Assembly (NCBI RefSeq): GCF_004766315.1
Contig: NZ_PVSN01000074.1
Coordinates: forward strand, 1-43,673
Direction of reading: 5' to 3'
Origin: Weissella confusa
GTDB lineage: Bacteria; Bacillota; Bacilli; Lactobacillales; Lactobacillaceae
DNA: 43,673 bases
Of this stretch, positions 687 through 43,673 are shown piece by piece. Each line of letters opens with the position of its first letter. The stretch's first letter is position 1. Below the pieces are notes generated by a model. It saw only the letters and a program-made list of their open reading frames with translations, was not told where the DNA came from and did not search any database. The translations under genes and the position numbers were made by a program.

Positions 687-806
687 TTGTCTTGATGAAT
701 AATCCGGGTTTAAAATATCCCGTTATTTTCAATTAAGAGCACTCAGTCAGCCGTCCTTATTTTAAAATTACCCCTATTTTTTAATTAAGGATTCAAATAA
801 CAATTT

Positions 807-9081: not shown

Positions 9082-10014
9082 TTACTTGATGTCTTCAATT
9101 TGCTTTTGGTAGTCGCGCACGATGTCAAAGTTTGAATCCTTTGACTTCGCAACACCGGCCCAGCTGTAGACATCGTTCAAAACCTTCTTACCCTCAGCCG
9201 TCTTTGATACCTTGATCATGGCGTTTTGGATAGCCTTTGAATCCTTAGCTGAGATACCCTTACGCAAAGCAATTGTATCGTTAGGAATCTTTGACGTGTA
9301 CATCAAAGCACGCGTTTGCTTGAAGACATCTGGGTTGTCCTTCTTAACAACGTTACGGGCATCATCGAAGATAAATGCTGCGTCCGTGTCGCCGTTCAAG
9401 ACTGACAAAACACCTTGGTCGTGACCCTTAACCGTAACTAGGTCAGAGTTCTTTACAACGTTCATACCCTTCTTCTTCAAGTCAACGACTGGGAACATGT
9501 AACCCGCGTCTGAAGTCGTATCTTGAACGGCAATCTTCTTACCCTTCAAGTACTTAACTGACTTGATCTTTGAATCCTTCTTTACCAAGACAATCGCGCG
9601 GTAGTAATCAACAAGCTTGTCCGTGTTTGAACCGTCGCCCTTCTTGTCGTTAATACCGTAACGCTCTGATTGCAAGATAACCTTGGCACCGTATTACTCG
9701 TGTGCGTGTACGTATGGGTCAGGTGGCAAGAATCCCATATCCACCTTCTTTGAACCCATCGCCTCAACAACCGTGTTGTAGTCAGTTGAGATAGTTACGT
9801 GCACTGGAATCCCCAATTGCTTCTTTAGCAACTTTTCCAATGGCTTAGCCTTCGCTTGAATCGTGTCAGCTTGTGATGATGGAACGAATTGGACGTTCAA
9901 CTCCTTCAAGCTAACCTTCTTTGATGCGGCATCAACTGATGCAGCAGGCAATGCGGTAACAAGTGTTGATGCTGCAATCGTAAGTGCAGCCCCTGCAACA
10001 AGCTTTTTAAACAT
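9082..10014 (-). pseudogene. phnD: Phosphonate-type ABC transporter substrate-binding protein, broken by an in-frame stop
   Basis: Two pieces in the same frame make one PhnD of about 310 codons. Codons 1-106 (10014 to 9697) carry a Sec-type signal and the first lobe, ending FLPPDPYVHAHE. Codon 107 (9694-9696) is TAA, and the frame goes on YGAKVILQSERYG to the normal end at 9082. PhnD-like proteins usually have Gln at this place, so a CAA-to-TAA change is the simplest explanation. The second lobe (KGHDQGVLSVLNGDTDAAF) is intact. The signal peptide has an AxA-type end (ASVDAASKK) and no lipobox cysteine, odd for a Gram-positive binding protein. First gene of the operon; without read-through the importer would lack its receptor. 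Confidence 0.88.
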
Positions 10015-22033: not shown

Positions 22034-22060
22034 ACTTGTAACCCGAAGGTCTTTAGATTA

Positions 22061-22144
22061 TGCCGTCGGTGGGGGTCGAACCCACACTCCCTTGCGGGAA
22101 CTGGATTTTGAGTCCAGCGCGTCTGCCTATTCCGCCACAACGGC
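22061..22144 (-). tRNA. tRNA-Leu(CAA), copy 2
   Basis: 84-nt long-variable-arm tRNA on the minus strand. Acceptor GCCGTTG/CGACGGC with discriminator A, anticodon loop CTCAAAA giving CAA, variable arm CCCGCAAGGG. CCA is not encoded. Identical to the copy at 22199, so the two arose by tandem duplication. Last gene of the seven-tRNA operon. Confidence 0.96.
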
Positions 22145-22198
22145 ATGATTATTATTAGATAAGACCTGAGGCCTGCTTGGAAACCCGGAGATTTCCGA

Positions 22199-22282
22199 TG
22201 CCGTCGGTGGGGGTCGAACCCACACTCCCTTGCGGGAACTGGATTTTGAGTCCAGCGCGTCTGCCTATTCCGCCACAACGGC
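22199..22282 (-). tRNA. tRNA-Leu(CAA), copy 1
   Basis: Same 84-nt sequence as the copy at 22061, 54 nt upstream of it in transcription order. All stems pair; anticodon CAA; CCA not encoded. Confidence 0.96.
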
Positions 22283-22326
22283 ATATCTAATATTAATCGG
22301 ATGATAGAAAGTTCAAAACTTTCAAG

Positions 22327-22400
22327 GGCGGTAGATGGGAATCGAACCCACGCATGTCGGTACCACAAACCGATGTGTTAACCACTTCACCACTACCGCC
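22327..22400 (-). tRNA. tRNA-His(GTG)
   Basis: Eight-bp acceptor stem GGCGGTAG/CTACCGCC including the His-specific G-1:C73 pair; anticodon stem TCGGT/ACCGA with loop TTGTGGT giving GTG. CCA not encoded. Confidence 0.95.
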
Positions 22401-22413
22401 ATTATCTATCAAG

Positions 22414-22484
22414 CAGGGGTAGAGGGAATCGAACCCCCACCAACGGTTTTGGAGACCGTCGTTCTACCGTTAAACTATACCCCT
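22414..22484 (-). tRNA. tRNA-Trp(CCA)
   Basis: Acceptor AGGGGTA/TACCCCT with discriminator G; anticodon stem ACGGT/ACCGT, loop CTCCAAA giving CCA. 3' CCA end not encoded. Confidence 0.95.
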
Positions 22485-22511
22485 ATAATGGAATGTATTA
22501 TTAAATTCCAA

Positions 22512-22584
22512 TGGCGCGGGAGGGAATCGAACCCCCGACACTACGAGCTTCAATCGTATGCTCTACCAACTGAGCTACCGAGCC
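22512..22584 (-). tRNA. tRNA-Phe(GAA) with an acceptor-stem mismatch
   Basis: Anticodon stem TACGA/TCGTA with loop TTGAAGC giving GAA; T-loop GTTCGATTC is normal. The acceptor is GGCTCGG against CCGCGCC, so position 4:69 is U-C, where A69 would pair. Otherwise complete; CCA not encoded. Confidence 0.92.
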
Positions 22585-22591
22585 ATTTAAA

Positions 22592-22665
22592 CGGTCACAA
22601 CGGGATTCGAACCCGTGATCTTTCGCGTGACAGGCGAACGTCCTAACCAACTAGACCATGCGACC
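22592..22665 (-). tRNA. tRNA-Asp(GTC)
   Basis: Acceptor GGTCGCA/TGTGACC (one G-U) with discriminator G; anticodon stem TTCGC/GCGAA, loop CTGTCAC giving GTC. CCA not encoded. Confidence 0.95.
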
Positions 22666-22667
22666 AA

Positions 22668-22740
22668 TGGACGTTACAGGGATCGAACCTGTGACCCCCT
22701 GCTTGTAAGGCAGGTGCTCTCCCAGCTGAGCTAAACGTCC
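22668..22740 (-). tRNA. tRNA-Val(TAC)
   Basis: Acceptor GGACGTT/AACGTCC with discriminator A; anticodon stem CCTGC/GCAGG, loop CTTACAA giving TAC. First gene of the operon, about 47 nt after the -10 box. CCA not encoded. Confidence 0.95.
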
Positions 22741-22786
22741 ATTATGTTTTGTGCTTTGCGATGTCCCTCGCTCAACAACAAAAATT

Positions 22787-22894: not shown

Positions 22895-25800
22895 TTATTG
22901 TTCATCTTCCTTCTTTTTTGTTGGCAAGAAGAACCATCCAAGGAACATACTGAACAACAAAACAGTTGCAAGTGTAAATGGTTGAAAGTTCCAATCACCA
23001 CTAAATCGACCAGCTAGATAGTCTGGACGATCCCAGAATCCACTACGAGCATCATTAGTCTTCGTTTCATCATCCGACTTAATAATGCGGTCTTGGATGC
23101 GAGCACCACGGGTTGCCTTACCTTCAGCCAACAAACGTTGACCAACATAAGCTGCAACACCTTGGACTGGTGCTTGCGTTGGCAATTGCTCACCAACTTG
23201 AGTTGCCACCGCTTCAGTCGCTTGTGCAATACCTGATACTTGGGTTGGCAATACAACCGTCTCAGTAACCGTGTATGGCAACATCGCTGTTTGTGGTACT
23301 GATTGACCACTACCCAGCGCTTGAACGATTGTCGCCGTCGTTGAAAGACCATTAGCAATATCCTGTGCTTCACGCAAAAGTTGTTCTGCACGTTGCGTTG
23401 CTTGGTTACCAACAACTTGGTCAACACCAATTTGGTTCGTTGCTGCGTCGATTTGAGCTGGCGTTTCCGCTGTCTCAATTGCTACCAACTGAGCACGAGC
23501 ATCTTCAAGGGCTGATTGCACCTTGTTCAATTGATCCTTGGCTTCAGCCAACTTGTCAGCAAGTTCTTGATTACCAGGATGGTTGTTAACCAAATCTTGC
23601 AATTGATCCACAATATCTTGAACACGAGAAGCATCATCACGCAACTCGTTAATCTTGTCGCGAACAGCATCTTCTGCTTCTGACTTGGCATCTGCCATAT
23701 CATCAGCAACCGCCTTCTTAGCGTCAGCGACATCCTTATCTGCCGCCTTAACCGCATCGGTTGCCTTTTCACCAGCTTCTTGGGCGACATCATTGATTGC
23801 CTTAGCATCATCAGCTGTCTTAGCTTGGTTAACATCGATTAATTGATCAACAATCGTGTCCTTGGCATCCTTTGCGTCAGCCAATTGTTGCTTGGCATCA
23901 TCCAACGCCTGTTGAACCTCAGGTGTATTTGGATGATCCTTCGCCAATTGCGTCAACTCATCAATATCCTTCTGAATTTGCTTGATTTCATCATCAACAC
24001 GGTCCAATTGTTGTTGGATCGCATCCTTGGCCGCTTCCTTAGCATCAGCCAGATCATCTACTGCCGTCGTCTTAGCATTCGCCAAGTCTTGGTCAGCTTG
24101 CTTACGATCAACATCAGCAGCCGTTGTCTTATCAGCAATGTCATCAGACAAATCAGAAACTTCAGCCAAAGTTGTGGCTTGAGCCAGAGCGTCCTTGTCA
24201 GCTTGCGCATCCTTATAACGCCCCTGCGCCTCAGTCAATTGCTTATTGGCATCAGCCAACAAATCGGCAATCAATGTATCATCTGGATTCTTCGCTGCAA
24301 TATCCGTCAATGTTGCGACATCATCATTGATGTTTGCCAATGAGTCTTCGATAGTAGCAATGTTATCCGCAATCGACTTGTCAGCTGCATCCTTAGCTGC
24401 CGCCAAGTTTTCGTCACTCTTCGTTTGCGCGTCCTTAACGTCCTGGTCAGCCGTCGTCTTGGCTGTGTCGGCCGTCGCTTCAGCTGTTTCAGCCGTTGAC
24501 TGCGCTGTTGCCACATCGGCTGGAATCTTGGCATCGTTAACGGCTGCCAATTGGTCTTGCGCATCTGACAAAGCATCTTCAGCCGTCGTCAATTGGTTTT
24601 GTGCATCCGCCAACTTATCCGCAATTTCAGTGTCATCCGGGTTCTTCGCTACCAAATCCTTCAAGTCCGCAATGTCCTTATTGATGGCCACGATGTCATC
24701 CGTGATGTTGTCGATTGACGTATTGATGGCCGGTCTTAGCTGCCGCTTGGTCAGCTGCCAAATCCTTGGCGGCTTGTACTTGGGCATCCGTCAAATCGTT
24801 ATCCGCCGTCTTTTGCGCCGTTGCTGCGTTTGAAACTGCCTTATCAGCAATTGCCTCTTGGGCAGCAACATCAGCCAACGTTGTTTGACTGTCGATAGCA
24901 TCCTTTGCGTCTTGTGCTGCTGTTTGGGCGGCTTGGGCATCCGTCAAACGCTCTTGTGCGTCTGCCAAGTCTTGGGCAATTTGATCATTCGTTGGATTAT
25001 CCTTGGCAATTTTCTCCAAATCAGCGATATCTTGCTCAATTTGCAAAATATTGTCACCAATCGTTACCAATTGTTCCGTGATTTGGTCCGTGGCTGCTTC
25101 CTTAGCTGCTGCCAAGTTCTCAGCACTCTTCGTTTGTGCGTCCGTCAAATCTTGATCCACATTTGTTTGTGCCGTCGTACCAGCCGCCTTATCGGTTGCC
25201 GCTTGATCAACCAAGTCTTGCACATCGGCCATTGTTGTTTGGTTAGCAACATCAGCCAATTGCGTCTCCGCGTCAGCCTTAGCCGCTTGGGCATCCGTCA
25301 ATTATTCCTTCGCATCAGCCAACTTTTGCGCAATTTCACTATCATCAGGATTCTTAGCCGCGATATCCGTCAATTGCGTGATGTCATCCGTAATCTTTGT
25401 GATGTTATCCGTAATTGACGCAATGTCTTGGTTAATCGTATCTGTCGCTGTCTCCTTAGCGTTGGCTAGGTTTTCAGCATGCTTGTCTTGGGCATCGACC
25501 AACGCAGCAGCGGCATCCTTTTGGGCCGTGTCAGCAGTTGTACCAGCTGTCGTTACCTTTTCTTCAGCTGCCGCCACTTCTGCAGGTGTCGTTGCATCAG
25601 CAATCTCCTGCAATTGATCTTGCGCCGTCGTCAACGCTGTCTTAGCATCCGTCAAATCTTGTTGTGCCTTAGCCAAATCAGCCGCAATTTGCGTATCGTC
25701 AGGATTCTTAGCCACCAAATCCTTCAAGTCAGCGATATCATCATTAATGGCATTGATATCATCTTGAATGCCTGAAATCGTTTGGTTAACAGCCGTCTTT

Positions 25801-28800
25801 GCAGCTGTTTGGTCAGTTAGCAAATCTTCTGCTGCGGCATCCTGTGCTTGCTTCAAATCAGTATCCGCTTGCGTATTCGCACCATCGGCACTCTTAGCAG
25901 CGTCAGTGGCGGCATCAACTTGGTCTTGGACCTCGGCCAACGTTGTTTGATCATCAAGCGCATCCATTGCTGCTTGGGCATCCGCCTTATCTTGCTCAGC
26001 CTGGGCAAATTGGTCCTTGGCATCAGCAAGCTTGTCGGCAATTTCCGTGTTAGTTGGATTATCCGTCGCAATTTGCGTCAACTCGTCAATGTCCTTATTG
26101 ATGGCTGCAATGTTGTCATCAATCGCCGTCAATTGGTCATCGATTGTCACCTCAGCTTGTGCCTTGGCATCCGCCAAATTATCAGCACTTTGCTTTTGGG
26201 CATCTTCAACGTCAGTTTGCGCTTGGTTTTCATTCTCTTGAACTTCGGAAACTTGATCAGCTGCGTCAGCCACTACATCGGCAACATCAGCCAACGTCGT
26301 TTGATCCTTAACCTTATCCAAATCAGACTGTGCTTGCGTCTTGGCCGCTTCGGCTTCATCCAATTGCGTTTGCGCGTCATCCAACAATCCCGCAATCTTC
26401 TCATCATCTGGATTCTTATCAGCCAAATCTTGCAACGTCGCAATATCATCGGTGATGTTCTTGATGTTGTCATCAATCGTCGCGATGTTATCCGTAATCG
26501 TCGTCTCAGCCTGTGTCTTTGCGTCCGCCAAGTTTTGGTCAGACTTTGTTTGAGCGTCCGTCACATCTTGTGCTGATGCTTCAGCTGCCTGAGTTGCCGT
26601 GTCACCATCAGCTGTTGCTTGATCACGAGCAGCTTCGACTTCAGCTGGCGTCGTTGCATTTTCGATAACCGACTTTTGACTCGTCGCATCAGTCAATGCA
26701 TCTTGCGCCGTCTGCAATTGTTCCTTCGCATCAGCCAACTTATCCGCAATCTCAGTATCATCCGGATTCTTAGCGGCAATATCCGTCAATTCGGCAATGT
26801 CATCATTGATATCAGCAATTTGATCCTTGATATTGTCGATTGTGTTATCAACTGCCGTTTGCGCAGCTGCTTGGTCTTCAGCCAAATCACCACTGGCTTG
26901 AGCCTTGGCGTCCGCCAAATCTTGATCAGCCGCCTTACCAGCCGTATCAGCATCACTAACGGCGTCTGTTGCAACTTGCTCTTGCTCAGCAACGTCAGCC
27001 AATGTCGTTTGTGAGTCAATGGCATCCAATGCCTTTTGGGCGTCGTCCTTAGCTGTTTCAGCGGTCGTCAATTGCTCCTTGGCATCAGCCAACTTATCCG
27101 CAATCACCGTGTTATCAGGATTATCCGTCGCAATTTTCTCCAACGCTGCGATATCGTCGTTAATCTTAGCGATATCATCATCGATGCTTGTGATTTGGTC
27201 AGTAATCGCTGCCGTCGAATCCTCCTTGGCATCGGCCAAGTTGCTATCTGATTGCGTTTGCGCATCCGTCAAATCACCTTGGGCATTTGTCAAAGCATCC
27301 GCTGCGGCCTTTTCATCAGCCGTACCAGCGTCAACTTGATCCTGCACATCAGCCAATGTCTTGGCGTCATCAACCGTATCCAATTGGTTTTGAGCATCCG
27401 TCAAAGCGTCCTGAGCATCCGTCAACTGTTGTTGCGCATCTGCTAGCTTATCAGCAATGTCTTGGTCATCAGGATTGTTATCGGCAACTTGTTGCAATTG
27501 GTCAACGATATCCGTAATCGACTTAACATCATCGGTGATTGCATCGACGTTATCTTGCAATGACTCCTTGGCGGCCGTCTTCGCATCGGCCAAGTTGCTA
27601 TCTGATTGCGTTTGTGCATCTGTCACATCCTTGTCAGCCGCTGCTTGGGCAGTATCACCCGCTGTCGCTGCTTCAGTCGCCTTATCTTGCGCAGCCGTCA
27701 CTTCAGCCGGCGTATCAGCATTTTCAATGGCTGCCTTTTGATCAGTTGCCGTCGACAAAGCATCTTGCGCATCAGCCAATTGTTGCTTTGCATCCGCCAA
27801 CTTGTCGGCAATCGTTGTGTCGTCAGGATTATTGGCTGCAATATCCGTCAATTCGGCAATATCATCATTAATTTGATCAATGTTGTCGTTAATGTCGCTA
27901 ATCGCTTGATCAACTGCGGTTTGTGCAGCCGCTTGGTCAGTTGCCAAATCAGAAGCTGCCAAGTCCTTCGCATCGGCCAAATCCTGGTCAGCTTGGTCCT
28001 TGTTACCAGTCGTTGAGGTTACGGCATTCGTCGCAATTTGCTCTTGTGCATCAACATCAGCTGGCGTTGCAGCACTATCAACAGCCGTCAACGCATCTTG
28101 GGCGGCCTTTTGAGCCGTCTCAGCTTCAGTCAATTGTTGTTGCGCATCCGCCAACTTGTCCTGAATCGTCGTGTTATCAGGGTTATCTGCTGCAATTTGC
28201 GTCAATTCAGCAATATCGCTGTTAATACCATCGATATTCTTTTGGATTGTCTCCAAATCAGCATTAATCGCGTTCTTGGCGTTTGTTTGCGCATCAGTCA
28301 AGTTTGCCACTGCTTGTTCGTCAGCTGTCTTTTGATCAGCTTGCGCATTCTCCAAATCTTGTGCTGCCTTATCAGCGTCTGTTTGACCCGCATCAACTGC
28401 TGTCTGGACATCAGCCAGCGTCGTTGCGTTATCAGCATTATCCTTTTGCGTTTCAGCATCGGCCAATTGTGTCTTGGCATCCGTCAATTGTTGCTTTGCA
28501 TCAGCCAACGCATCAGCAATCACTGTATCGCCAGGATTGTCGTTTGCCGTTTGCTGCAAGTCATCAACAATCGTTTGGATATCGTCAATGTTCGACGTGA
28601 TATCTGCAATGTTTTGATCCAGTGCCGTCTCAGCCGTTGCTAATTGGTCCTTGGCATCGGCCAACTTATCAGCGATGTCTTGGTCATCTGGGTTCTTAGA
28701 TGCGATATCTTCCAATGCCTTAATGTCATCTTGAATATCACCAATTTGGTCTTCAATTGTTGAAATCGTTGAATCAACCGTCTTTTGCGCAGCCGCTTGG

Positions 28801-31800
28801 TCAGCAGCCAAGTCAGAGGCTGCTGCCGTTTGAGCATCGGCCAAATCATCCGCCGCTGTCTTTGCATCTGTATCAGAAGTGCTCTTGGCAGCATCGGCAG
28901 CATCAGTTTGCGTTTGCACATCAGCAATTGTCGTTTGATCAGCAATCGCATCCTTGGCAGCTTCAGCAGCTTCCTTTTGCGCTTGGGCATCGGCCAACTG
29001 CGCTTCAGCATCCTTCAACTTGTCAGCAATTGTTGTATTGTCTGGGTTATCAGTCGCGATTTGCTTCAAGTCATCAACATTGCTTTGAATGCTATCGATA
29101 TTATCTTGAATGTCCGCAATGTCTGCATCGATTGCTGTCTCGGCAGCTGTCTTAGCATCTGCCGAGTTATCCGCCGACTTATCAGTTGCCGTGTCCAATT
29201 GTGTTTGCGCATCCGTCACAGCCTTATCAGCTGCGGCTTGATCAGCTTGGGAGGCATCAGTAATCGTCGTCACATCTGCCAACGTCTTCGCATCATCAAC
29301 TGCCGCCAATTGGTCTTGTGCATCTGCCAAAGCATTGTCAGCAATCGTCTTTTGATCTTCAGCATTTGCCAAAGCATCAGCAATCGCCGTATCACCAGGA
29401 TTCTTATCAACCAAATCTTGTAGTGATTCGATTGTATCTGCAATCGCTGCTTGGTCCTTTTCGATTTGATCAATATTTGCTTGAATGTCCGTCTTGGCTT
29501 CAGCTTGCGCATTGGTCAAGTTATCCTCAGATTGAGATTGTGCAGCCGTCACATCCGTACTTACAGCATCAGCCGCTGCCTGGGCGACATCCTCATCCTT
29601 TTGACCTTGCGTTGTCAAAGCATCAACACCCGCTACGGTCGTTGCAGAATCTACAGCCTTCAATTGTGCCTCGGCATCCGTCAAAGCGTTATTAGCAATC
29701 GTTTGTTGTGCCTGAGCATCAGCCAACTTATCCGCAATCTCTTGATCATCAGGATTGTTGTCCGCCAGCGTTTGCAGCATTGCGACGTCTGATGCGATTT
29801 GTGCCACGTCTTCGTTGATAGCGTTGATGTTGTCTTGGATGGCATCCTTGGCAGCTTCTTGAGCGGCCTTCAAGTTGGCATCGCTCTTAGCTTGGGCAGT
29901 CGTCACGTCTTGTGCTGACTGCGTGCCAGCCGCTTCAGCATCGGTTTGATCACCGGCTGCAACTGCCGTAACTGCCGTAACAGCAGCTGGCGTCGTTGTA
30001 TCAGCAATCGCTTCCTTTTGCGCTTGTGCGTCTGTCAACGCTGCGTTGGCGTTATCCAATTGCTTCTGCGCATCAGTCAATGCATTTGCAATATCCGTGT
30101 CACCAGGGTTGTTATCCGCCAACGTTTGAATCGTGGCGATATCCTGTGTGATTTGGTCAATTTGATCTTGAATAGCTGCGATGTTGCTATCAACCGTGGT
30201 TGTTGCTGCCTCTTGGGCAGCCTTCAAATCAGCTGCTGCCAAATCCTTTGCGTCAGCTAGGTCCTTGTCAGCTGCTGTTTGTGCTGTGTCTGCAGTAGTC
30301 GTTGCCATTGTCGCAGTGTCTTCCAAAGCCGTTACGGCTGCTACTGTGGTTGCCGCATCAATGGCCGCTTGCGCATCCTTGATAGCTGTTTGTTGCGTTG
30401 TTGCTGTTGTCAATTGATTCTTGGCATCAGCCAACTTCGCTTGGATTTCATCATTATCTGGATTATCAGCTGCAATCTGCGTCAAAGCAGTGATATCGTC
30501 ATTGATTTGCGCAATGTTATCCGTCACTTGCGTCAATTGATCACCAATTGCGGTTTCGGCAGCTGATTTTGCGGCTGCCAAATTAGCGTCAGCCTTCTTT
30601 TGCGCATTCTCCAAATCAGTTGTTGATTGTGTCGTTGCATCAGTAATTTCACCTGCAGCGGCCGTCGCAGCATCACGTGCTGCCTGCACCTCTGCTGGCG
30701 TTGTTGCATCTTGCGCATCCGTTGCTGCTTGTGCCAACGCTGTCAATTGATTATTTGCTGTCGTTAATTGTGTCTGCGCATCATCTAACGCAGCCTGAAT
30801 ATCCGCATCCCCAGGATTATCATCGAGCAATTGTTGGATGGCATCAATATTTGATTGAATCGTCTTGATGTTAGCATCTGCATCATCAAGTTGTTGTTGA
30901 ATTGCCGTTGCAGCAGCTGCCTTATCATCCGCAAGCACCTTTTCAGCTTCAGCTCGAGCCGCCGTTACCGCATCATTTGCAACAACCAGCATACCTTGCA
31001 CATCCTTACCAGCCGCATTAACCGCCGTTTGTTGGGCGATAACCGCTTGCACTGACGTCAAATCCGGCACTTCTTGGGCAGCCGTATCAACCGTCACCTG
31101 TGCGGCTTTGGCATCTGCCAACGCCTTTTGTGCATCGGCCAACGCTGTCGCAATTGTTGTATTACCTGAGTAATCCTTAGCTAATTGCTCCAATGCGGCC
31201 ACGTCGTCAGCCATCGTGTTCGTGGCCGTCGTATTGTCACTCGTAACCGCAGTCGCAGCAGACGTTGCAGCTTCCTTAGCCAAGGCCAAGTTTGACGCCG
31301 CACGCGTTTGTGCATTCGCCAAATCAGTATCAGCGATTTGTTGCGCTGATGCCGCAGCTGCACTGTTTTGATCAGTACCAACTACAAGATTGTTGGCATC
31401 TGCCATCGACATCGTGCCACTATTCAAACTTTCAAGGGCCGTTTGGGCTTGTGAGAGCACCGTCTGCGCATTCGTCAAACGCGTCTTAGCATCAGCCAAC
31501 CAGTTGGCGATATCTGTGTCGTTAGGATTGTCCGCCGCGATTGCCTCAAGTTGCGTAATGTCACTCTGAATTTGGGCAATGTTGTTGTTAATCGAGTCAA
31601 TATTAGCTTGAACGCGCTTCTTTTGCGCATCCAATACTGCAGCATTGTAGGCTGCCAATGCCGTTTGATAATCGGCCAACGTTTGCGCATTATTTACAGC
31701 CGTCAATGCATCTTGCACTGATTGATCACTTGCAACAACACCGGCATCTTGTGGCGTGTCTTCATACGCAACTGTGTGCGCAATGTTGTCTGAACCAAAA

Positions 31801-33989
31801 CTACCAGCAGCAATTGATGTCGCCTTGTTACCATCAACGAATGATACCTTGCCGTCTTGCTGCTTGATGCTTTGTTCGGCATAATCCGTGAACGCATTCT
31901 GATTAACAACATCCGTTGACCCGTCTGGGTACGTCGTGGTCATGTTAACGGCCTTTTGAGCGTATGCGACCGTGAAACTTGGCACGGCCAATGCACCGGC
32001 ACTAGTCATGTTGAAGGCACCAACAATCGTGTACGTGCCATCACCGTTGTCCTTGTAGTACATTGACTTCGTTGAATCGGTATCCAACACTGTTCCGTCA
32101 CTAGCCGTAATCTTAGCCGTAAATCCATCTGGCACCTTAATCGTGTTCGCTGAATAAGCCCCGTCTGTGACACCAGTCAAAGACGTTGCAGAACCACCGA
32201 TAGCCGTTGAAAGTGCCGTCTTTCCGGCATCATTCAACCCATCTGGTTGTGTATAGCTAATAGTTGCTGTTTGAGCCGCTGGCGTCAATTGGACGCAGAC
32301 TGTCTTATCAGATGATCCAAATGTTGCTGATGACAGGTCAGCACCGAGCTTGGTCGTGAGCCCCGAATCTGAATAAACGCCCGATACAGCACCGGTATAT
32401 CCAACCTTCGTTGCGTTTGACAAAGCTGTCGTATAGTCAGCATAATCCGCTGCAGCCGTTGCTTTTTGGCCATCATAATTCGTACCAGCCGTTCCAAGTT
32501 CAACAGAAGGCACGGTTGAAATAACCTTACCGTTCTGGTCAACGAAGACCGTCGGCAGCTTGGAATTCTTGGCATATTGCACGTTAATAATGTTGTTAGC
32601 ATCCGTATCAGAAACCGTCAACGGCTCAGTTGTTGATTTCGATGTACCATACGTAGTTCCAACATACGTGTACCCAGAAATAGTCGGTGCCGTAAATGTG
32701 TGGGCCGTGCCAGTTGGGTTCGTTGATGCACCAGAAGTCACCATTGCCAATGTATCGTTGACGTTAGACTTGATTTTAGTACTAGTGGAAAGCGTGTTAC
32801 CCGACTTGTCTTGGTAATTCACAGTTGTGTCAGCTGTTGGCAACGTTAGGTTAAACGACTTAATCGTGACACCTTTTTGAGAATACTTAGATCCGTCGGC
32901 AGCTTTAAATCCTAATGACATCGTAGAATTCACGCCATCAGTAATCGTTATAGTTTTAGTAGCTGAGTACGAACCATCATCGGCTTTAATCGTTAACGTT
33001 CCGACACCATTCGAATAGGTATACGTCGCCGTCATAGGTGCTTCTAGGTTAGAATCAGATGCCCCATTCCAGGTTGAACTCGTTGAAGCCGATGAACCGT
33101 CAAATCCCATCAACCCGCCAGAACCACCATTTGAAGCTGTGAATGAAGGATAACTATCTGACGATGATACTGCTTGCAACGTCCCTGATGAATTAGTCGT
33201 ACGGAACCCAGCTACTTGTGTTCCATCCGAGCCACTTAACAGCACACCTCCATCCGTTGGATTAACAATGTTCGATGAATCCCCATCGTTTTTCCAAAAA
33301 TCAATCCCCCACTCAACGGCATTTGGGATACCCTTAGCACCTGTTTCAGAATCACTTCCAATTCCAAGTTGTCCACCGGCTCCACCGGTAGTTCCTAACG
33401 CGCCCGGTGCAATCGGCGCAAGCACCATTCCCAAGAAATCTCCAGCTCCATTGGAAGCACCAAATCCACCACTTCCACCAGTGTTATACTTCGTCAAGTT
33501 CAAATTGAACTTCATTGTCCAACCTGCAGTCATATCGAGTTGCTTGTTAAACGCAATAGCACCTTGCTGACTGCCTGATGCTCCAGACGTCAAAGATGTA
33601 AAGGTTGCGCTTCCGCTACCAAGCTTTCCGTTAAGAGATCCCGAAGCATTAGTCGCCGAACCTGACAACGTAAAGTTCGACGTCACCTGTTGTTGCGTTG
33701 ACGTGAACGCGTGGTTTCCCCCATTCGCGTCCGTCACAGCATTAACCGCATCAGCCGAAGCTGAGCGCGTCTCAAATAAGATATCCCCAATATTTGTAAT
33801 TGGCGACGAACTCTTCTTCACTTTCACTGATGAGCGTGGTTCGTTGTTACCAGTCTCATTTTGAATTTCATCAACAACTTCCGGACCAACAATACTTGCC
33901 CCAACTGTCAGTGCAGTCATCCCCGCGATAACCCACGCGGATCTCTTTTTCGGCGTTTCTGACGCCTTTGCAAATTCGTTTTTATTCAT
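22895..33989 (-). pseudogene. Giant lectin-like repeat surface protein, broken by a stop and a frameshift
   Basis: One gene of about 3,698 codons if two lesions are repaired. ATG 33989 follows GAGGCGG; a GTG at 34010 is less likely. Residues 17-35 form a hydrophobic export signal. Residues about 75-385 look like an L-type lectin domain (NAVEWGIDFWKNDGD, DFLGMVLAP), then a MucBP-like stretch (TVNYQDKSGNTLSTSTKI), further beta-rich segments to about 790, then about 24 repeats of 118 residues and a C-terminal membrane helix (FTLATVLLFSMFLGWFF) with tail KKKEDEQ. No LPXTG. Codon 2896 (25302-25304) is TAA where E-Q-L repeats predict CAA. At about 24730 an extra G (AAGACCGGCC for AAGACCGCC) shifts the frame, after which it is open to 22895. 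Probable role: adhesion to host or food glycans (inference). As read, translation gives 2,895 residues without anchor. Confidence 0.85.
23450..31650 (-). repeat. About 24 tandem 118-residue (354-bp) repeats
   Basis: Each unit has the anchor NP-D/G-D-x-x-IADKLADAKxQL, then an Ala/Asp/Gln helix, TTLADV or TTPAEV, a second helix ending DLADAK, and DNIxxIxxDIxxLxxIA before the next anchor. Two adjacent units counted by hand are both exactly 118 residues between anchors. Twenty-four anchors were counted over the broken gene. One unit near 28650 is much shorter (anchor followed by ETALDQNIADITSN), a likely recombination product. The two ends of the array are more divergent than the middle. Confidence 0.88.
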
Positions 33990-34179
33990 TGTTTCCGCCT
34001 CAATAGTCACTCAATATTTTTGTGTATACTCAACCCTAAGAATTTCGATACTTTCCCTACCTTGAATAATACGGGGCTGGTTTTTCTTTTCAGTGATAGA
34101 AAACAGAATTAAAGTGGTTAAATTTTTGTCCTTATCGCGTGAGCAAATTTCTTGACATCTCTGAAAGTTCCTTATTGAA

Positions 34180-34242: not shown

Positions 34243-34313
34243 GGTAGTGTAGCCAAGTGGTAAGGCACCGGTCTGCAAAACCGCCATCGCGGGTTCGATT
34301 CCCGTCACTACCT
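34243..34313 (+). tRNA. tRNA-Cys(GCA)
   Basis: 71-nt tRNA: acceptor GGTAGTG/CACTACC with discriminator U, D arm GCCA..AGGC, anticodon loop CTGCAAA giving GCA, T loop GTTCGATTC. The outer anticodon-stem pair 27:43 is C-C, a mismatch; the other four pairs are sound. CCA not encoded. It lies alone on the plus strand between two giant minus-strand genes. Confidence 0.94.
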
Positions 34314-34320
34314 CTAAAGA

Positions 34321-34429: not shown

Positions 34430-37400
34430 TTACTTATCATCGTTCTTCTTGCGCTTGATACCAATCAAACCACCCAAGGCAGCTAGCATTGATGCCACAG
34501 CACCAGCAATCAACCCACGCTTCTTAACATCCGTTCCGTCAGTTGGCTCACTTGTTTCCGTTGGCTCGGCCGTCACATTAATCGGCGTTGCACGGATAAT
34601 CTTCTCATCAGCCTTAGTACCAGCGTCGTATGGCAAAGCATTTGCCTCACTAGACGTTGCCGGTGTTTCTGACACTACCGATGTCGCTGAACCTGAATCT
34701 GTTTGCGTCGTTGGTTCTGCCACGTAGGCCGCTACGCCTGGTGTCACAACCGTCGTTTCGATTGATTGTTCTGCACTTGGTGCAACTGCATCAGTCGTTA
34801 CAACGTTTGATTCTTGCGTTTGCGTCACAACTTGATCCACAGGTTGTGGTGTCGTTGTTGCGGTCGCACGGTCGTAAGCCGTTTGGGCTGTTGCCATCGC
34901 GGCGCTTGCGACATTGGCCAATGATGTTGCTTCAGCAAATGCTGATGTCGCAACGTCTGCGGCACTTGAAGCAATTGCTGTTTCGCTAGCAGCCACAGCA
35001 GCAGCGCTCGTTGCAGCTGACGCAGCGCTCATTGCTTCGCTGGCAGCACTGGCGGCCTTAGTAGCATATGAATCAGCAGCTGATTGATCACCAGCTTGGG
35101 CAGCCGATGTTGCCAATGAGGCATAAATCGAGGCAGCTGATTCAGCAGCTTGGGCCGTACTGTGCAACGCATTTGCTTCAGAAGCGGCGGCGCTGGCAGC
35201 TTGGCAGCGCTTTGAGCCACTGCACTCGCACTTGACGCAACACTAGCAGCACTGTCCGCAGCTGATGCGGCACTGGCAGCTTGTGATGCAGCCGAAGCGA
35301 CCGTTGCATCAGTCGTCTTCGATGCCAAGTTAGCAACGGCACTTGCTTGTGAGCGACTTTGGTTAGCCACACTGCCAATTGCTGTTGCAGCACTTGAAGC
35401 GGTCTTAGCATACGAACTTGCGGCCGACGCATCAGTGGTTGCCTGCGTAGCGGCTGAACTCGTTGTTGCTGTTGCTGAGCTGGCAGTCTTAGCAGCATCC
35501 CCAGCTTGGTTCATTGCCGCTTCCTTATCAGCGGCTGACTGTGCGGCAGCTGCTCTTGATGTTGCAGCAGCTGCGCTAGAAGCCATCTCATTAGCGGCCG
35601 ATGCCGTTGAAGTTGCACTTGACGCAACTGACGCAGCGCTTGAGTCAGCTTCAGAAGCTGACTGCGCAACACTAGCGGCACTTGAGGCAACCGCCTGGGC
35701 TGAACTTGCGACAGCGGCAGCGCTGGTAGCTTGGCTAGCTGCTGAACTTGCAGCGCTAGAATCTCCAGCTTGCGCATATGAACTTGCGGCGACTGCAGCT
35801 GAGCTAGCAATGTCATTGGCGTTCGAAGCAACCGTTGCGGCGCTTGAAGCAACCGCATTAGCACTTGAGGCCGTACTTGCCTGACTTGCAGCAACTGAAG
35901 CAGCACTTGAGGCCGTACTTACAGCACTTTGCGCAACACTAGCGGCGCTTGAAGCTGTTGAGGCAGCTGACGTTACCGCACTGTTGTTTGGATACTTGGC
36001 AGCATCTGATCCAGCATTCGTTGCAACACTTTGTGCCTTTTCGGCAGTTGAACTAGCTTGTGAAGCTGTCTTATCAGCTTGGCTAGCGGCCTGACTTGCG
36101 CCAGATGCAACTTGACTTGCAGTTGATGCTTGTGAAGCTGCATTACTGTTATTCGCATCTGCTTGGCTCGCAGCGCTGGCAGCTTCATCAGCAGCTGATT
36201 GCGCTGCTGTAGCTGTCGAAGCGGCTGTTGCAGCGCTCTTTGCCACGCTATTCGCTTCATTAGCAAGACTAGCAGCTGAACTTGCCACGCTGGCAGCACT
36301 TGAAGCAACACTATTAGCAGATTCTGCAACCGAAGCAGCACTAGTTGCCACCGAGGCAGCGCTTGACGCAGCGCTGTTATTTGGATACTTACCTGCATCC
36401 GCTACCGCACTCGAGGCTGCTGAACTTGCTACTGTTGCCGTTGAGGCGGCACTTGAAGCAGCACTAGCCGTTGAATTGGCCGCTTCAGCAGTTGCATCTG
36501 CATCACTAGCCGTCTTGTCGGCTTGTTCTGACGTAGCAGAAGCTGCCGAACTTGCGGCTGAGGCTGCTTGGCTAGCTTGATCTGCCTCTGATTGGGCAAC
36601 TGCTGCCGTCGAGGCGGTTGCTGCTTCGCTAGCAGCCGTCTCATTAGCACTCGTGGCCGTTTGGGCAGCACTTGACGCAACACTATTCGCACTTGAAGCA
36701 GCATCATTAGCAGCACTGGCAGCCGTGGCGGCGCTTGAGCTGACTTAGCAGCCGTGGCCTTTGATTGGGCAATCGCTGCATATGAACTTGCAGCGCTCTC
36801 GTCGCCGACTTGTGCATATGAACTAGCCGTCGAGGCTGCTGAACTTGCTACCGCATTAGCCGATGTCGCTTCCGAAGCAGCCGAACTCGCAGCTGTGGCA
36901 GCTGACGTTACCGCACTGTTATTTGGATAAGTCGTGGCATCGTTAGCAGCACTTGACGCTGCATCAGTAGCATCTGAAGCTGCTGAGCTTGCGTTATTAG
37001 CCACTTCATCGGCAACCGACGCTGCACTTGAGGCAGCACTTGTTGCGGAATCAGCAGCATCTGAAGCAATATCCGTTGCTGTGTTTGCAAGACTAGCTGA
37101 TGAAGCCGCCTTAGCCGCTTCGTCTGCTTGTGATTGCGCATTAGCAGCAGTCGACGCCGTTGTTGCGGCACTTGAAGCCGTTGACAAGGCTGCGCTGGCA
37201 GCTTCACTCGCACTATCGGCCACGGTTGCGGCTGATGTTGCTGTACTTTGGGCTTCAGATGCGACGCTCGCAGCTGAGTTAGCTACTGATTGCAGTGATG
37301 TCACAGCATCGGCAGCACTCGAGGCTACTGCGGCGTATGAACTTGCAGCACTCTCATCACCTGCTTGAACGGCTGAAGAGGCAGCCGTTGCAGCGCTGGC

Positions 37401-40400
37401 AGCTGAGTTAGCTGCTTCACTGGCAACTGCGTTTGCATTTGATGCAACCGATGCTGCGCTTTCCGCCTTCGTTGCAGCACTACTTGCTGTTGACGCTGCG
37501 CTTGACGCAACAGCATTGGCGCTATCAGCTTCACTAGCTGCAGCAGATGCAACTGAAGCAGCAGATGTTACCGCACTATTGTTTGGATACTTTGCTGCTG
37601 AACTTCCAGCATCCTTCGCAGCTGAGTTAGCCGTACTTGCAGCTTCTGATGTTCCCTCAGCAGTTTCTTGCGTATCGTCAGCTACCGAATTAGCGACACT
37701 CGCACTGTTTGAGGCTGTTTCAGCTTGATCGGCCGTTGCAGATGCAGCACTTGATGCGACATCAGCCAAACTTTGAGCATCATCCGCCTCAGACTGTGAA
37801 TCTGCGGCAATCAATGCCGTTTCAGCAGCTTCCGAGGCAACTGCATTCGCACTACCTGCAACGCTCGCAGCACTACTTGCTGTTGATGCTGCCTCACTAG
37901 CAGCACTCGAAGCAGTCATCGCTTTGCTATTAGCACTCTCGGCAATTGCTTGTTGGGCAACCGCTTGGCTAGCAGCTGCATCTGCGGCTGAACGGGCTTC
38001 GCTAGCGGCAGACAAGTCACCTGCTTGCGCATATGATTCGGCAGCACTAGCTGCGCTGCTTGCCAATACTTCTTGACCGGCAGCCGCCTTGGCTGCTTCT
38101 GAAGCCTGACTAGTGGCATCACTTGCAATCTTACTTTGGGCATCCGCGACGCTCGCAGCGCTGCTTGCTGTTGACGCAGCATCATCTGCCACGCTTGCGG
38201 CATTCGTTGCCGTTGAGGCAGCTGATGTTACCGCACTGTTGTTTGGATACTTTGCTGCATCTGCATTTGCACTTGTTGCTGCGCTATCCGCCTGACTAGC
38301 AACCTTATCAGCCGTTGAAGCAGCTGATTCCGTCGCGCTTGCGTTATCTGCCGTTTGACTGGCAACAACGCCAGCGGCACTAGCAGCATTACTTGCGGCT
38401 GCGGCGGCTGACTTCGCGTTGTTATCCGCCGTCTCGGCGCCAATTGCTTGATCCGTTGCAGCAGCGGCCGTACTTGCCGTTGTTGCGGCGCTCGAGGCTG
38501 CTGATTCTGCTGCGGTTGCAATTTCTGCTTGTGATGACGCGATAGCTTCAGCACTTGAAGCTAAGCTAGCCATCGAACTAGCAACAGCTGATGCACTCGA
38601 GGCTGTCGACAAGGCACTGGCAGCTGCTTCTGATTGCTCAGCAGCTTCGTTTGCAGCACTCGTTGCCTTGTCCAAATCACCGGCCTGAGCTGCTTCGCTC
38701 GCGACGCTGGCGGCTGAACTTGCCAAACTAGCAGCGTTACTTGCAGCTGTTGCAGCTGATGAAGCAGCCGTTGAAGCTGAATCTGCTGTTGCGGCAGCAC
38801 TTGAAGCAATCGAGGCAGCCACACTGGCAGCTTCATTTGCGTTCGATGCTGTTGTCGCAGCCGAATTCACATCATCAATCGCCTTATTCAAAGCGGCGTT
38901 TTGCGCATATGCTGAAGAATCTAGCAACGCATTTGCAGCTGAAGAGTCTGCTTGCGCATTTGAATTAGCTGTCGAAGCTGTTACTGCGGCACTTGAAGCA
39001 TTATCAGCCGACGCATTCGCATCAGCCGTTTGCTTACCAGCATCGCTGGCAGCCTGACCGGCATTTTCAGCATCAGCATTCGCTGAGTTTGCATCCTCAG
39101 TTGCACGGTTAGCCTCGTCTTGGGCTTGGGCTGCCGTTTGAGCATCCGCCAACGCTGACTTAGCCTTTTCAGCTGCCAAACTAGCCGTCGTAGCAGCCGA
39201 TGAGGCAGTTGTTGCAGCACTTGAAGCCGTTTCGTTAGCTGTTGTTGCAACAGCCATCTCAGATGCTGCCGCTGATGACGCTACCGAAGCAGCTTGAGCG
39301 GCTGTTGATGCCGCCGTTGAGGCTGCTTCAGCATTTGATTGATCACCAGCTTGAGCATATGAGCTTGCGGCGCTTGCCTGATCAGCGGCAACCTTTGCTT
39401 GCGATGCTGCTGTTGAAGCGTACTCACTTGCTGCCGTTGCGGCACTATTAGCATCTAGAACCGCTTGACTAGCTGTTGCATTGGCTGCTATTGCCGTTGA
39501 CTCTGCATCACTAGCAACCGCTGCAGCTGACTGAGCCGTGCTATTTGCCGTTGAAACGGCAGTGTTATCTGGATAACTTGACGCAATATTCGCAGCTGCT
39601 GAAGCGGCTGATTGGGCGACAGAATTGTAATTAGTTGCCGACTCAGTTGCTGTATTCGTCGCATCGGCATTTGAGGTAGCATCTGACGCGGCAACGGTCG
39701 CATTGTCCGCATCGCTACCAGCTTGCTTAGCCTGGTCGTTAGCGGTTGTTGCATCACTTCCTGCCGTTCCGGCAGCATCCGCTGCTGCAGTTGCTTGGTC
39801 ACCGGCTTGGGCGTATGAACTTGCATCAGCTGTCGCATCGCTCGCTTGTGACGCTGCTGTAGCCGCTTCACTTTGAGCTGATTGGGCAGCAATCAAAGCA
39901 TCACCAGCAGCATTCGCAGCTGAACTTGCCACCTTAGCGGCTGATTGGGCTTCAGACAATGCTTGTGCTGCTGCGGCCGAGTTCGTTGCGGCAGCTGATG
40001 AATTACCAACTTGCGCTGCTTCACTGGCGGCCTTAGCATACGCATCGGCTGCAGCTGCGGCCGAACTTGCGACTGAAGCAGCTGAACTTGCGATTGCATT
40101 TTGGGCTGTCGCAGTTGCCAACTGTTCATCCGCGACACTTGCGGCTGATTGCGCCGTACTGTTAGCAACCGACGCTGTCATCGCTGCCGATTCAGCAGCA
40201 ACAGCAGCTGATTGCACAGCACTATTATTTGCGTAAGCAGACTCTGCGGCCTTAGCGCTTGCTGAAGACGCTACTTGATCAGCCGTTGACTTTTGAGTCG
40301 CAGCTGAACTTGCCGCGTCATTAGCTTGTGAGGTCACATTCGCGACATCACTAGCTGTTTGTGACACATTATTTGCCGTGTCGCCAGCTGATGAGGCCGT

Positions 40401-43400
40401 CGTACCAGCCGCCTTCGCATCCGACGCTGCACTGTCAGCATCATCTTGGGCTTGGGCGGCTGTTTGCGCATCTGCTAACGCTAACTGAGCCACGGCAGCT
40501 GCCGAACTAACAACACCGGCGGCTGAACTTGCCACAGTGGCAGCGCTATTAGCCAACGAAGCAGCGCTTTCAGCTGCTAGCAATTCAGATGCAGCTTGTG
40601 ACGCTGCAGTTGATGCGGCAGCCGATGCTGAACTTGCGGCTGATGAGGCCAATGATGCATTAGCCAAATCACCCGCTTGGGCATATGAACTGGCTGCACT
40701 AGCTTGATCAGTTGCAATTTGTGCTTGCTTATTAGCTTCGCTAGCAGCCGATGTTGCGTTCGACGCAGCATCATTAGCGGCACTGGCTGCTGATTGGGCA
40801 ACGACATTAGCTGATGACACAACTTGTGCAGCTGAGTCAGCAACGCTGGCCGCGCTTGATGCTGTGCTATTTGCCGTCGCAATCGCACTGTTAGCTGGGT
40901 ACTTCGTTGCGATGCTTTGTGCTTCGCTCGCTGCTGATTGCGCAATTGCATTATCAGCAGTGGCATTCTCAACACTGACATTCGCGCTATCGGCTGCTGT
41001 ATTGGCGCCACTCGCTGCTGACGTTGCATTCGTTGCATCGTCCGTTGCTTCTGAAGCCGATGAACCAGCGGTTGCCGCATCGCTACCGGCCGTTCCGGCG
41101 GCATCGGCTGCTGCAGTGGCATCACTACCAGCCGAAGCATAAGAAGTTGCATCAGATTGCGCACTCGATGCTGTGGTTGCAGCTGAACTTGCCAAAGAAT
41201 TAGCTGAGCTTGCTGTATCCGCTGCTGTTTGTGCGTCTGCTTGGGCACTTGCCGCTGTTGAGGCAGCTGAACTTGCCAACGCAGCATATGATGAAGCAGC
41301 TGAACTTGCCACTTGGGCTGCGCTTAGATCACCCGCTTGGGCAGCTTCACTCGCTTGAGAAGCAGCCTTGCTTGCTGCTTCGGTTGCCGATGAGGCAACC
41401 GTCGCGGCTGAATTAGCGGTGTCCGTTGCTTCACTTGCCGCATTTTGGGCATTTGAGGCAACTGTGGCCGCTGATTGCGCAATACTGTTCGCTTCGCTCG
41501 CTTGAGAAGCAGCTGTTGATGCCGCACTGGCGTTAGATTGCACGGCACTGTTGTTTGCATAGGCTGAATCGGCAGCCATAGAAGCTGCCTCGCCTGCAGC
41601 AGTTGATGCAGTTTCAGCTGCAATCGCGGCTGAACTTGCCGTTGATTGTGCTGCATTATTTGATGCAGCCGTCTCCGAACTTGTCGATGCTGTTTCAGAG
41701 GCAACATCACCGGCCGTAGCAGCTGAACTTTGTGCATCAGTTGCACTGTTCAAAGCACTGTCGGCGGCATCCTGGGCTTGAGCAGCCGTCTTCGCTTCAG
41801 CTAGTGCCTGTTGTGCTTCAGACAATGATTCACTAGCTACGGCGTCCGCACTTGCAGCAGCGCTGGCAGCTTCACTAGCCTTTATCATTTCTGCATTAGC
41901 CGTCGAAGCTGCACTGGCTGCTGCTTCACTAGCGGCACTAGCTGCTGCTGCAGCTGAACTTGCGGCCGAACTAGCATTAGTTGCCGCACTCAAATCACCT
42001 GCTTGCGCATATGAGGCAGCTAATGATGATTGTTCAGCAGCTGTTGACGCAGCTGCATCCGCAATGTCCGCTTGCTCATCAGCCTCTGATGCCGCTGCAA
42101 TCGCTGCGTCTTGTGATGTTTTAGCATCCGATGCGGCTTGAATTGCATCGGCCTTGGCTGAATTTGCCTTATCGGCTGCCGACTGAGCCATCGATGCAGC
42201 CGTTGAAACCGCCGCATTATCCTTGTATGCACTCGAAGCCAAAATATCAGCTGCTGATTGGGCAGTTGTATCAGCATTCGACGCTGTTGACGCGGCTTGT
42301 TCAGCTGAAGATTGCGCATTATCAGCATAGCTAGCAGCTGAATCAGCATCATCTACGGCTTGATCAGCGCTGGCGGCAGCACTATCTGCCGAAACAGATG
42401 CTGCAATGCCATCTGTCGCTGCTCCCGCTGCATTATCCGCAGCGCTGACAGCAGTTGCCATTTCAGACAAGGCCGTACTTGCTGCCGTGGCGGCGCTATC
42501 AGCGGCACTTGAAGCCTGATCGGCAATCGTTGCATATGAACTTGCAACTGAAGTAGCATCCGATGCGGCACTAGCGGCCAATTGCGCATCACTCATCGCA
42601 GCAGCCGCTGCGGTTTGTGCACCGGTTGCGGCCGTGGCGTAACTTGCAGCGGCCGACTTATCACCCGCGTTTGCAGCACTTGAAGCCAATTCAGCATATG
42701 AACTTGCGGCTGTTGCGGCCGAACTTGCCGTTGAAGCAGCTGTTGAAGCCGCTTCTTGTGCGGCAGCTGCGGCACTGGCAGCATCAGATGCAGCCGTAGC
42801 AGCACTATTTGCCGTTGTAAGGGAGTCGTTCGCTGCCGCAGCGGCACTAGTAGCCGCCGTAATTGCACTTTGTACTGCGCTGTTGTGCGCATAGGCTGAG
42901 TCGTTTGCCAAGTCGCTAGCCTGTGAGGCATACGATGAGGCAATTGCGGCTGTTGAAGCCGTCACTTGTGCCGTTGATCCAGCTGCACTAGCGGCGTTTT
43001 GAGAATCTGTTACTGATGAACAAGCTGTGTTAGCTGCTTCTCCAGCAGATGCCGCATTTTCAGAAGCCAATGTCGCTGCGTCGTTCGCATTGTTTGCTAA
43101 ATCAGTTGCGGCTGCGGCATCAGTTGCCTGTGATTGAGCAACCACTGCCTGATCAGCGGCTGATTGCGCTGTCGCTTCGGCATTATTAGCCAAATCAGTT
43201 GCTGATTGCGCGGCTGATGCAGCTGCGGCGCCTTCTGATGCGGCTGTTGATGCAGCTGCCGATTGATTTGCAGCTGAACTTGCGGCTGATGCAGCTGAAC
43301 TTGCCGTCACGGCATCACCCACATTAGCTGCCGAACTCGCAACTGACGCTAATGAAGCAGCTTCTGATGCAGCTGACTGGGCAACTGCATTCGCGCTATC

Positions 43401-43547
43401 CGCCGTTTGTTGCGCAGCACTAGCCACTGATGCAGCTGACTTCACGGCGTCGTTGTCAGCATAAGAATCAGTCGCAGCAATACTTTGCGCAACACTATTT
43501 GCTGAACTTGCCGTTGACGCTGCCGAATTAGTGATATCAGCAGTTGA
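34430..43547 (-). pseudogene. Giant Ala/Ser-rich repeat surface protein, 5' end cut off by an IS and two frameshifts
   Basis: A frame of Ala/Ser repeats runs from the IS junction at 43547 (GGG TCA ACT GCT GAT) leftwards; inside the IS it meets TAA, so the start is missing. At about 36740 (SKATAAKSAQA then nonsense) one nucleotide is lost and the repeat continues in another frame through 35029-36351; at about 35200 (AVAQSAAK then nonsense) one more is lost and the last part reads to 34430. The protein would exceed 3,030 residues, with about 13 units of roughly 220 residues, each with an anchor like KYPNNSAVTSAAS or AYANNSAVQS and a SYAQAGDxSAA block. The C-terminus has a Thr/Pro/Glu-rich stretch, GVAAYV, a membrane helix (GLIAGAVASMLAALGGLIGI) and tail KRKKNDDK; no LPXTG. 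Resembles serine-rich-repeat adhesins in composition; glycosylation is possible but no glycosyltransferase or SecA2 gene is nearby. Confidence 0.82.
34950..43547 (-). repeat. About 13 long Ala/Ser repeats (roughly 220 residues each)
   Basis: Anchors of the form Y-P/A-N-N-S-A-V recur; one interval counted by hand is 220 residues. Variants include SAYAHNSAVQSA, SAYKDNAAVSTA, SSYPDNTAVSTA and KYPNNSAVTSAA. A second block, SYAQAGDLSAA or near, falls about 70 residues after the anchor in most units. Units nearest the C-terminus (KYPNN type) are most alike. Confidence 0.8.
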
Positions 43548-43673
43548 CCCGGATTATTCATGCACTAAATTTTTAACCACAGCTAAATCAGTAAAATACG
43601 ATAAATCACCTTGAAACTGCCAGTACCTTGGCACGGTTTCAGGGTGTTTTTTTCGATTGGGCGTTTTTTGAGA
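43548..43673. mobile_element. End of an insertion sequence interrupting the giant gene
   Basis: The repeat-protein frame stops abruptly at 43548, where CCCGGATTATTCAT begins. The same 14 bases, inverted, end the IS1380-type element at 708. The following sequence differs from that end, so this is either the other end of the same IS type or a related element. It is AT-rich with a hairpin (TGAAAC..GGTTTCA type, about 43610-43640) and runs off the window; no coding part is visible. Confidence 0.75.

Follow-up and report, generated by a model that had tools for sequence, protein, structure and literature searches.

A contig of Weissella confusa (NZ_PVSN01000074.1) encodes, on its minus strand, a giant protein with a lectin-like tip on a stalk of 118-residue repeats, and we consider it probable that the intact product is a fibrillar lectin adhesin: a membrane-held rod of 28 units with a fixed stalk and a tip exchanged by recombination. 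The window analysed here is this entire contig (C9; 43,673 bases), taken from a 2.2-Mb draft assembly of 95 contigs. Bacteria of the W. confusa group are common in fermented food and in the gut, and their attachment is little studied. Among the open-access papers listed in our searches none describes the adhesin (subscription papers were not covered), and no open-access paper searched mentions Weissella together with an L-type lectin.

The part worth following is the combination of a fixed stalk with an apparently exchanged tip. We compared 83 stalk units from three genomes, namely G416, assigned to the window's species, G013, of a sister species, and G023 (W. confusa JQAY01). For all 83 units the best match in another genome lay at the same array position, with an identity of 0.919 at the same position versus 0.383 at other positions, and clades by array position were recovered at 27 of the 27 positions present in the three genomes. 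The ratio of nonsynonymous (dN) to synonymous (dS) change in the stalk was 0.096 between G416 and G013 and 0.088 between G013 and G023. Evidence for tip divergence comes from one same-species pair, the window and G416, in which the lectin shows a dS of 1.22 (dN 0.20, dN/dS 0.17); the corresponding dS is 0.23 for the signal, 0.16 for the middle region, 0.03 and 0.10 for two stalk stretches, and 0.071 and 0.066 for two flanking genes. The parts of the adhesin gene, in order of translation, are as follows.

33756..33989, minus strand: N-terminus, long export-signal-like segment (by eye)
32541..33750, minus strand: divergent tip segment, lectin plus MucBP-like, borders approximate (third-position identity; dS)
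32841..33734, minus strand: L-type lectin domain, residues about 93-390, site residues AGD / GGQLGIG / GIDFWKN (PF18483 below cut-off; PDB profile matches 4m01 and 7yl4; motifs in four of four alleles)
32601..32825, minus strand: MucBP-like domain, residues about 396-470 (PF06458, 19.7 bits, E 0.0015, below the cut-off of 23)
31641..32540, minus strand: middle region, uncharacterised, residues about 491-790 (no Pfam family over cut-off in 31851-32822)
25305..31622, minus strand: stalk, first piece, 118-residue helical repeats with 19 loop motifs (repeat scan; three units modelled)
25302-25304, minus strand: in-frame TAA stop within the repeat array (open reading frames)
24696..25301, minus strand: stalk, second piece, 201 amino acids, one loop motif (reading frames, alignment)
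22895..24787, minus strand: stalk, third piece with four loop motifs, and C-terminal region (reading frames, motif count)
22922..22978, minus strand: C-terminal hydrophobic stretch FTLATVLLFSMFLGWFFLP, then TKKKEDEQ (by eye)

The gene and its breaks in the assembled copy

The adhesin gene starts at an ATG at 33989, with the ribosome-site-like stretch GAGGCGGA immediately 5' of it, and reaches its final stop at 22895; an alternative upstream GTG start at 34010 gives a first piece of 2902 amino acids. As assembled in the window genome, the gene is broken and does not encode one continuous protein. Its reading frame is split over three pieces of the minus strand (25302-34010, 24696-25301 and 22895-24787) by the in-frame TAA and by a frame change near 24.73 kb, between the second piece and the third. 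The original prediction of a giant protein spanning 22895..33989 was thus right about the span and wrong about a single continuous protein. Residues 1-190 of the second piece are 97.4% identical to the intact gene, after which the frame changes. Relative to the intact copy in G416 (4252 amino acids in one frame), the window copy is without two in-frame stretches, one of 66 residues (198 bases) and one of four whole units (1416 bases), and the junctions of these losses have 20 and 24 bases, respectively, common to both sides. G013 holds an intact copy of 4209 amino acids, and in G023 an 874-residue frame is accompanied by a second frame of 3245 residues, still open at the end of the stretch taken.

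A plausible account of these breaks, to which we give somewhat less than an even chance, is that the strain itself has an unbroken copy and that all of them arose in assembling a 9-kb repeat array. The lost stretches are located at the junctions with common bases, the draft is in 95 contigs, and the G023/JQAY01 assembly likewise splits the adhesin gene once. Against an assembly fault alone, the TAA is seemingly a substitution and not an indel, as the stretch 24246-28634 has a single gap relative to G013, explained by the frame change; in addition, a non-repetitive gene at 9082-10014 seems to hold an in-frame stop too, because it occupies two frames without an indel in the alignment.

It is also possible, if doubtful, that the giant adhesin is truly broken in the window strain, as a decaying pseudogene beside a neighbour that is also being lost. 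The stop, the frame change and the two in-frame losses all fall within the adhesin gene, the neighbouring giant gene is frame-split and cut by an insertion element, and the W. cibaria genome G021 has just a lectin-gene remnant with stops, on a 7-kb contig. Decay sits less well with the intact 4252-residue frame in same-species G416 and with the stalk dN/dS of 0.096 between G416 and G013, and long repeats can be misread in a 95-contig draft. In a 66%-complete genome (G003, contig C18), lectin-gene pieces lie in shuffled order, probably through misassembly.

An acidic stalk of 118-residue units

Over residues 771-2902 of the first piece, identity at a lag of 118 is 0.37, and among lags 90-259 only 118 and 236 exceed 0.22. 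About 24 helical 118-residue repeats had been predicted; the period is strict and the window does contain 24 NP-loop motifs (19, 1 and 4 in the successive pieces; the unit around one motif is cut down to 52 residues), but the array is longer where it is intact: G416 and G013 have 28 loop motifs each, and G023 has one in its first frame and 27 in its second. In G416, 25 of the 27 spacings between motifs equal 118 and the other two are 119 and 115; in G013, 26 of 27 equal 118 and the remaining one is 111. A three-unit super-period is also visible: in the window's first piece it is restricted to the second half, where identity is 0.55 at lag 354 versus 0.41 at lag 118, the first half giving 0.33. 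The intact arrays show it more weakly, with 0.456 and 0.430 for three units versus 0.39 for one.

The stalk is acidic and long, as had been expected of it, with a net charge of -318 over the 2132 residues 771-2902, and its three modelled units are helical. Conserved residues of the unit lie chiefly in the heptad core and the loops; for the hydrophobicity periods we used 73 of 79 unit entries, leaving out a false motif within the lectin and five units that were atypical or shortened. An AlphaFold2 model of three stalk units, with a confidence score (pLDDT) of 97.8, consists of serial three-helix bundles with common 78-residue helices. The structure alignment used 19 of 44 candidate rows, those in register, an earlier 47-row version having widened to 612 columns with rows slid by whole units. 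Structure prediction had been proposed as the way to tell a continuous coiled coil from three-helix bundles, and the model is neither one coiled coil nor a string of separate beads, its serial bundles being joined by common helices. Among the 50 likenesses listed for the stalk, a trypanosome surface protein, ciliary proteins and designed bundles rank above spectrin repeats; none of these 50 is an Ebh structure, which does not imply that Ebh is excluded.

No Pfam family matched more than two of the 24 single units at E 0.01. Seven families were listed at this threshold, and FIVAR, GA and DUF1542 were not among them for any of the 24 units, nor were they listed for whole pieces at E 1; a spectrin model was listed neither for any of the 24 single units nor for whole pieces. 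Whole stalk pieces showed coiled-coil likeness and no specific family in Pfam and NCBIfam scans. Several candidates were rejected: an SMC-like or other coiled-coil protein, a generic likeness (NCBIfam ASRP at 53.2 bits versus a cut-off of 300, SMC models far below theirs, Surf_Exclu_PgrA at 23.3 bits versus 70); HEF_HK (PF19191), for which the whole first piece exceeds the cut-off (33.9 versus 24.1 bits) but no single stretch passes, and which is unlisted for the 24 single units; and PDB sequence relatives of the repeat, where neither of two matches at E 0.001 has a stretch passing alone. The view that the repeat is not a named family thus agrees with the Pfam, NCBIfam and PDB searches of pieces and single units, which returned no specific match, and on the evidence of its sequence the stalk is an undescribed family of predicted helical repeats, which adds to the known adhesive stalks.

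The profile searches of family and phylum genomes showed the repeat in no genome outside the W. confusa/cibaria group. The unit profile matched 4 of 397 family genomes, the window's own included (G023, which has the repeat, is not among the matches listed), and 1 of 398 genomes in the phylum, again the window's own. The N-terminal 633 residues have matches in 6 of the 28 genomes searched in the genus, counting the window's own. We rejected an origin from phage or plasmid: among viral contigs, searched with one peptide pattern, no relative was confirmed and the unit profile had no match, and the three-unit protein query had no plasmid match at E 1e-10. With a DNA query against plasmids, the 20 records listed, out of 77, match only the last 42-46 query bases, at the tRNA-Val gene.

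The signal-like segment at the N-terminus comprises, in this order, a positively charged stretch, a hydrophobic core WVIAGMTALTVGASIVG and a long tail; the KxYKxGKxW signal model does not match it (8.6 bits versus 23.6). At the opposite end, no LPXTG precedes the hydrophobic stretch (by eye) and PF00746 has no match on contig C9, in line with the sortase-independent membrane anchor that had been proposed, here a single C-terminal hydrophobic stretch with a KKK tail. The same genome has five sortases and five PF00746 anchors, the latter on contigs C21, C57, C27, C14 and C32. An accessory Sec export cluster was rejected, one SecA being over the cut-off in four of four genomes and no true Asp1 being found in five genomes (SecY2 was not searched); Asp1 matches occur in two of the five genomes, one of the three matches is over the cut-off, and the same places also match a glycosyltransferase model.

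From these elements we propose that the protein would be exported and held in the membrane by its single C-terminal hydrophobic helix, and that the 28 acidic units, as three-helix bundles in series, would make up a semi-rigid rod. In it, helix C of each unit would continue as helix A of the next, over about 78 residues, while helix B folds back. By a geometric estimate, a net rise of about 7 nm per unit would give about 0.2 micrometre for 28 units, and the rod would carry the N-terminal L-type lectin and MucBP-like domain past the cell wall, where they could bind glycans and so mediate adhesion.

It is improbable that the stalk is itself the binding surface, with the lectin as an accessory, in the way that Embp repeats bind fibronectin. 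In the excerpts of PMC7587433 used here (the other papers cited by such numbers are likewise represented by excerpts), the F- and FG-repeats of Embp, composed of helical bundles, suffice for fibronectin binding. The units described here, however, are acidic in all three helices (mean net charge -4.3 to -6.3) and only 38% alike between positions, their conserved residues fall mainly in the heptad core and loops, and they have no known ligand.

The lectin-like tip and its divergence

The lectin-like nature of the tip, which the original prediction had proposed, was supported by a profile of 12 lectins that matches the solved structures of SraP (4m01, E 3.5e-10) and YwfG (7yl4, E 3.2e-8), and the tip is, by sequence comparison, related to these L-type lectins. 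The motifs AGD, GGQLGIG and GIDFxxN are present in four of four lectin alleles and align, as placed by eye, with D117, G136, D152 and N156 of YwfG (D166 and loop 13-14 of YwfG lie outside the mapping), the calcium and mannose residues of YwfG being those described in the excerpted PMC9815576; the tip may accordingly be a candidate for calcium and sugar binding. At the position of the stacking aromatic, the four alleles have W, Y, Y and N. When the N-terminal 398 residues were scanned alone, PF18483 matched residues 105-384 at 53.7 bits (E 3.2e-14), below its curated cut-off of 78.3. PF06458 likewise stayed below its curated cut-off of 23 (17.4 bits in the whole piece, 19.7 and 18.2 in other scans), and we call that domain MucBP-like only.

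Within the first 1000 residues, no part varies more between the window and G416 than the lectin does. Third-codon-position identity to G416 is 0.545 (210/385) over residues 91-480 versus 0.953 (524/550) over residues 481-1030, and the divergent segment has a sharp border near residue 490 and a gradual 5' one at residues 80-95. The middle region of G013 is a different version, with a dS of about 1.5 to the others. A tenfold rise in synonymous change is not produced by selection on its own, so the divergent tip was likely imported by recombination. Divergence in place under strong diversifying selection, without import of divergent alleles, is very unlikely: the lectin's place as the most variable part would suit it, but dS is raised too (1.22 versus 0.03-0.16 in stalk and middle region) with a dN/dS of 0.17, and the 3' border of the segment is sharp.

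Several observations weigh against a lectin tip exchanged on a fixed stalk. PF18483 is not listed in a scan of the whole 2902-residue piece, and the window's lectin sequence alone finds no PDB relative. Of 251 family genomes, the lectin profile matched 2, one of them the window's own, in a draw showing neither G013 nor G023. The lectins are not uniform among G416, G013 and G023 either, with identities of 77-84%. The giant neighbour upstream has no PF18483 match, its 'lectin-like' start being known from alignment only. Finally, between the window and G416 this neighbour is divergent as well at residues 651-790 (0.84, 0.60 and 0.38), its residues 1-650 having a third-position identity of 0.98-1.0; because of this divergence, patchy exchange is not confined to the adhesin gene.

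For the recombining adhesin that we favour, unit number and order in the stalk would be kept while the segment of lectin and MucBP-like domain is replaced, and strains would therefore keep their reach and could change their binding target. We put forward tentatively, as a proposal that may well not hold in full, that a stalk of exactly 28 position-specific units is kept across at least three species, that the lectin and MucBP head is traded as a cassette between strains (the middle region also being different in one species), and that the sugar held changes without any change in the fibre. Such strains would form a natural control pair, with one stalk and different heads, and if heads are exchanged on a fixed fibre, head specificity is directly testable across the four lectin alleles. 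In other systems, host specificity is known to arise from variation between alleles of an adhesin (excerpts of PMC4640099).

Known systems and neighbouring loci

The adhesin design had been called unusual, which stands in part: giant stalks of helical bundles with a putative C-terminal transmembrane region are known in Ebh and Embp (excerpts of PMC7587433), and what is new here is the stalk repeat family and its pairing with a lectin. Ebh of Staphylococcus aureus and Embp of S. epidermidis have, in the excerpted text, repeats of about 120 residues that form three-helix bundles joined by a common helix into an elongated rod, a bundle layout matched by our three-unit model; this is a likeness of layout, not homology. 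They differ in having two three-helix bundles per 125 residues, versus one per 118 in the model, and Embp is described as having 10 F- and 40 FG-repeats, versus 28 units here; a lectin tip is present here, and none of the families listed for the 24 units is FIVAR, GA or DUF1542. Ebh and Embp are not known to carry LPXTG, a point in common with the adhesin.

SraP of S. aureus (L-lectin module 4m01) is alike in having an L-type lectin in its N-terminal binding region, with a profile E of 3.5e-10. Its stalk is Ser-rich and glycosylated, and it has accessory Sec export and an LPXTG anchor, whereas the stalk here consists of helical repeats. YwfG of Lactococcus lactis, with which Msa of L. plantarum is grouped among the closest known systems, shares an L-type lectin followed by a mucin-binding-protein domain, with calcium and mannose residues aligned. 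In excerpts of PMC9815576 it has Mub repeats, and by its PDB chain name a Gram-positive anchor, in contrast to the 28-unit helical stalk without LPXTG described here. Serine-rich repeat proteins with GtfA/GtfB clusters (excerpts of PMC6973325) are matched here by a GtfA/GtfB-like pair just upstream of the Ser/Ala-rich giant neighbour; unlike in those systems, one SecA only and no true Asp1 were found here (SecY2 not searched), and the adhesin is not Ser-rich. Periscope proteins, as excerpted from PMC8201768 and PMC9704523, also project a ligand-binding domain on a repeat stalk, but there the length is variable, whereas here three genomes have 28 units each (split over two frames in one genome) and it is the tip that varies. 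In the excerpted main text of a 2015 in-silico survey of Weissella adhesins (PMC4621295), the words 'lectin', 'giant' and 'repeat' are absent.

The adhesin gene sits between a cluster of seven tRNA genes (22060-22741) and a tRNA-Cys gene on the other strand (34243-34314), and a perfect, terminator-like inverted repeat lies between the latter and the giant neighbour upstream (by eye). The neighbour is located as follows.

34430..43547, minus strand: upstream neighbour, giant Ser/Ala-rich protein (three frames here; interrupted by an insertion element where the window ends)

Its N-terminus is on contig C26, carries a KxYKxGKxW signal (44.8 bits versus a cut-off of 23.6) and aligns with the lectins. 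Two GtfA/GtfB-like glycosyltransferase genes lie just upstream of it, the first with a TIGR02918 match of 146-149 bits, below the cut-off of 574.6. The contig break falls at an insertion-like element (window about 43548-43673 and C26 1-670) that interrupts this gene and presumably encodes a transposase, hence its insertion-element look; C26 1-708 is 99.4% identical to window 1-708.

Elsewhere in the window, the gene at 9082-10014, which we take to resemble a phosphonate-type binding protein, is in two frames, versus one 310-residue frame in W. confusa (L019 14112-15044). Two public records, JQAY01 and JAAOED01, are both titled Weissella confusa DSM 20196 and are about 82-92% alike over the region; because of this, and because they fall in two separate genomes of a species-level set, one of the titles is probably wrong. 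On contig C84 of the W. cibaria genome G021, two GtfA/GtfB-like genes are directly followed by the lectin-gene remnant with stops. In G013, contig C7 holds near 76.1 kb a 5567-residue frame with a sortase anchor, another giant surface protein, close to a match of the GtfA model.

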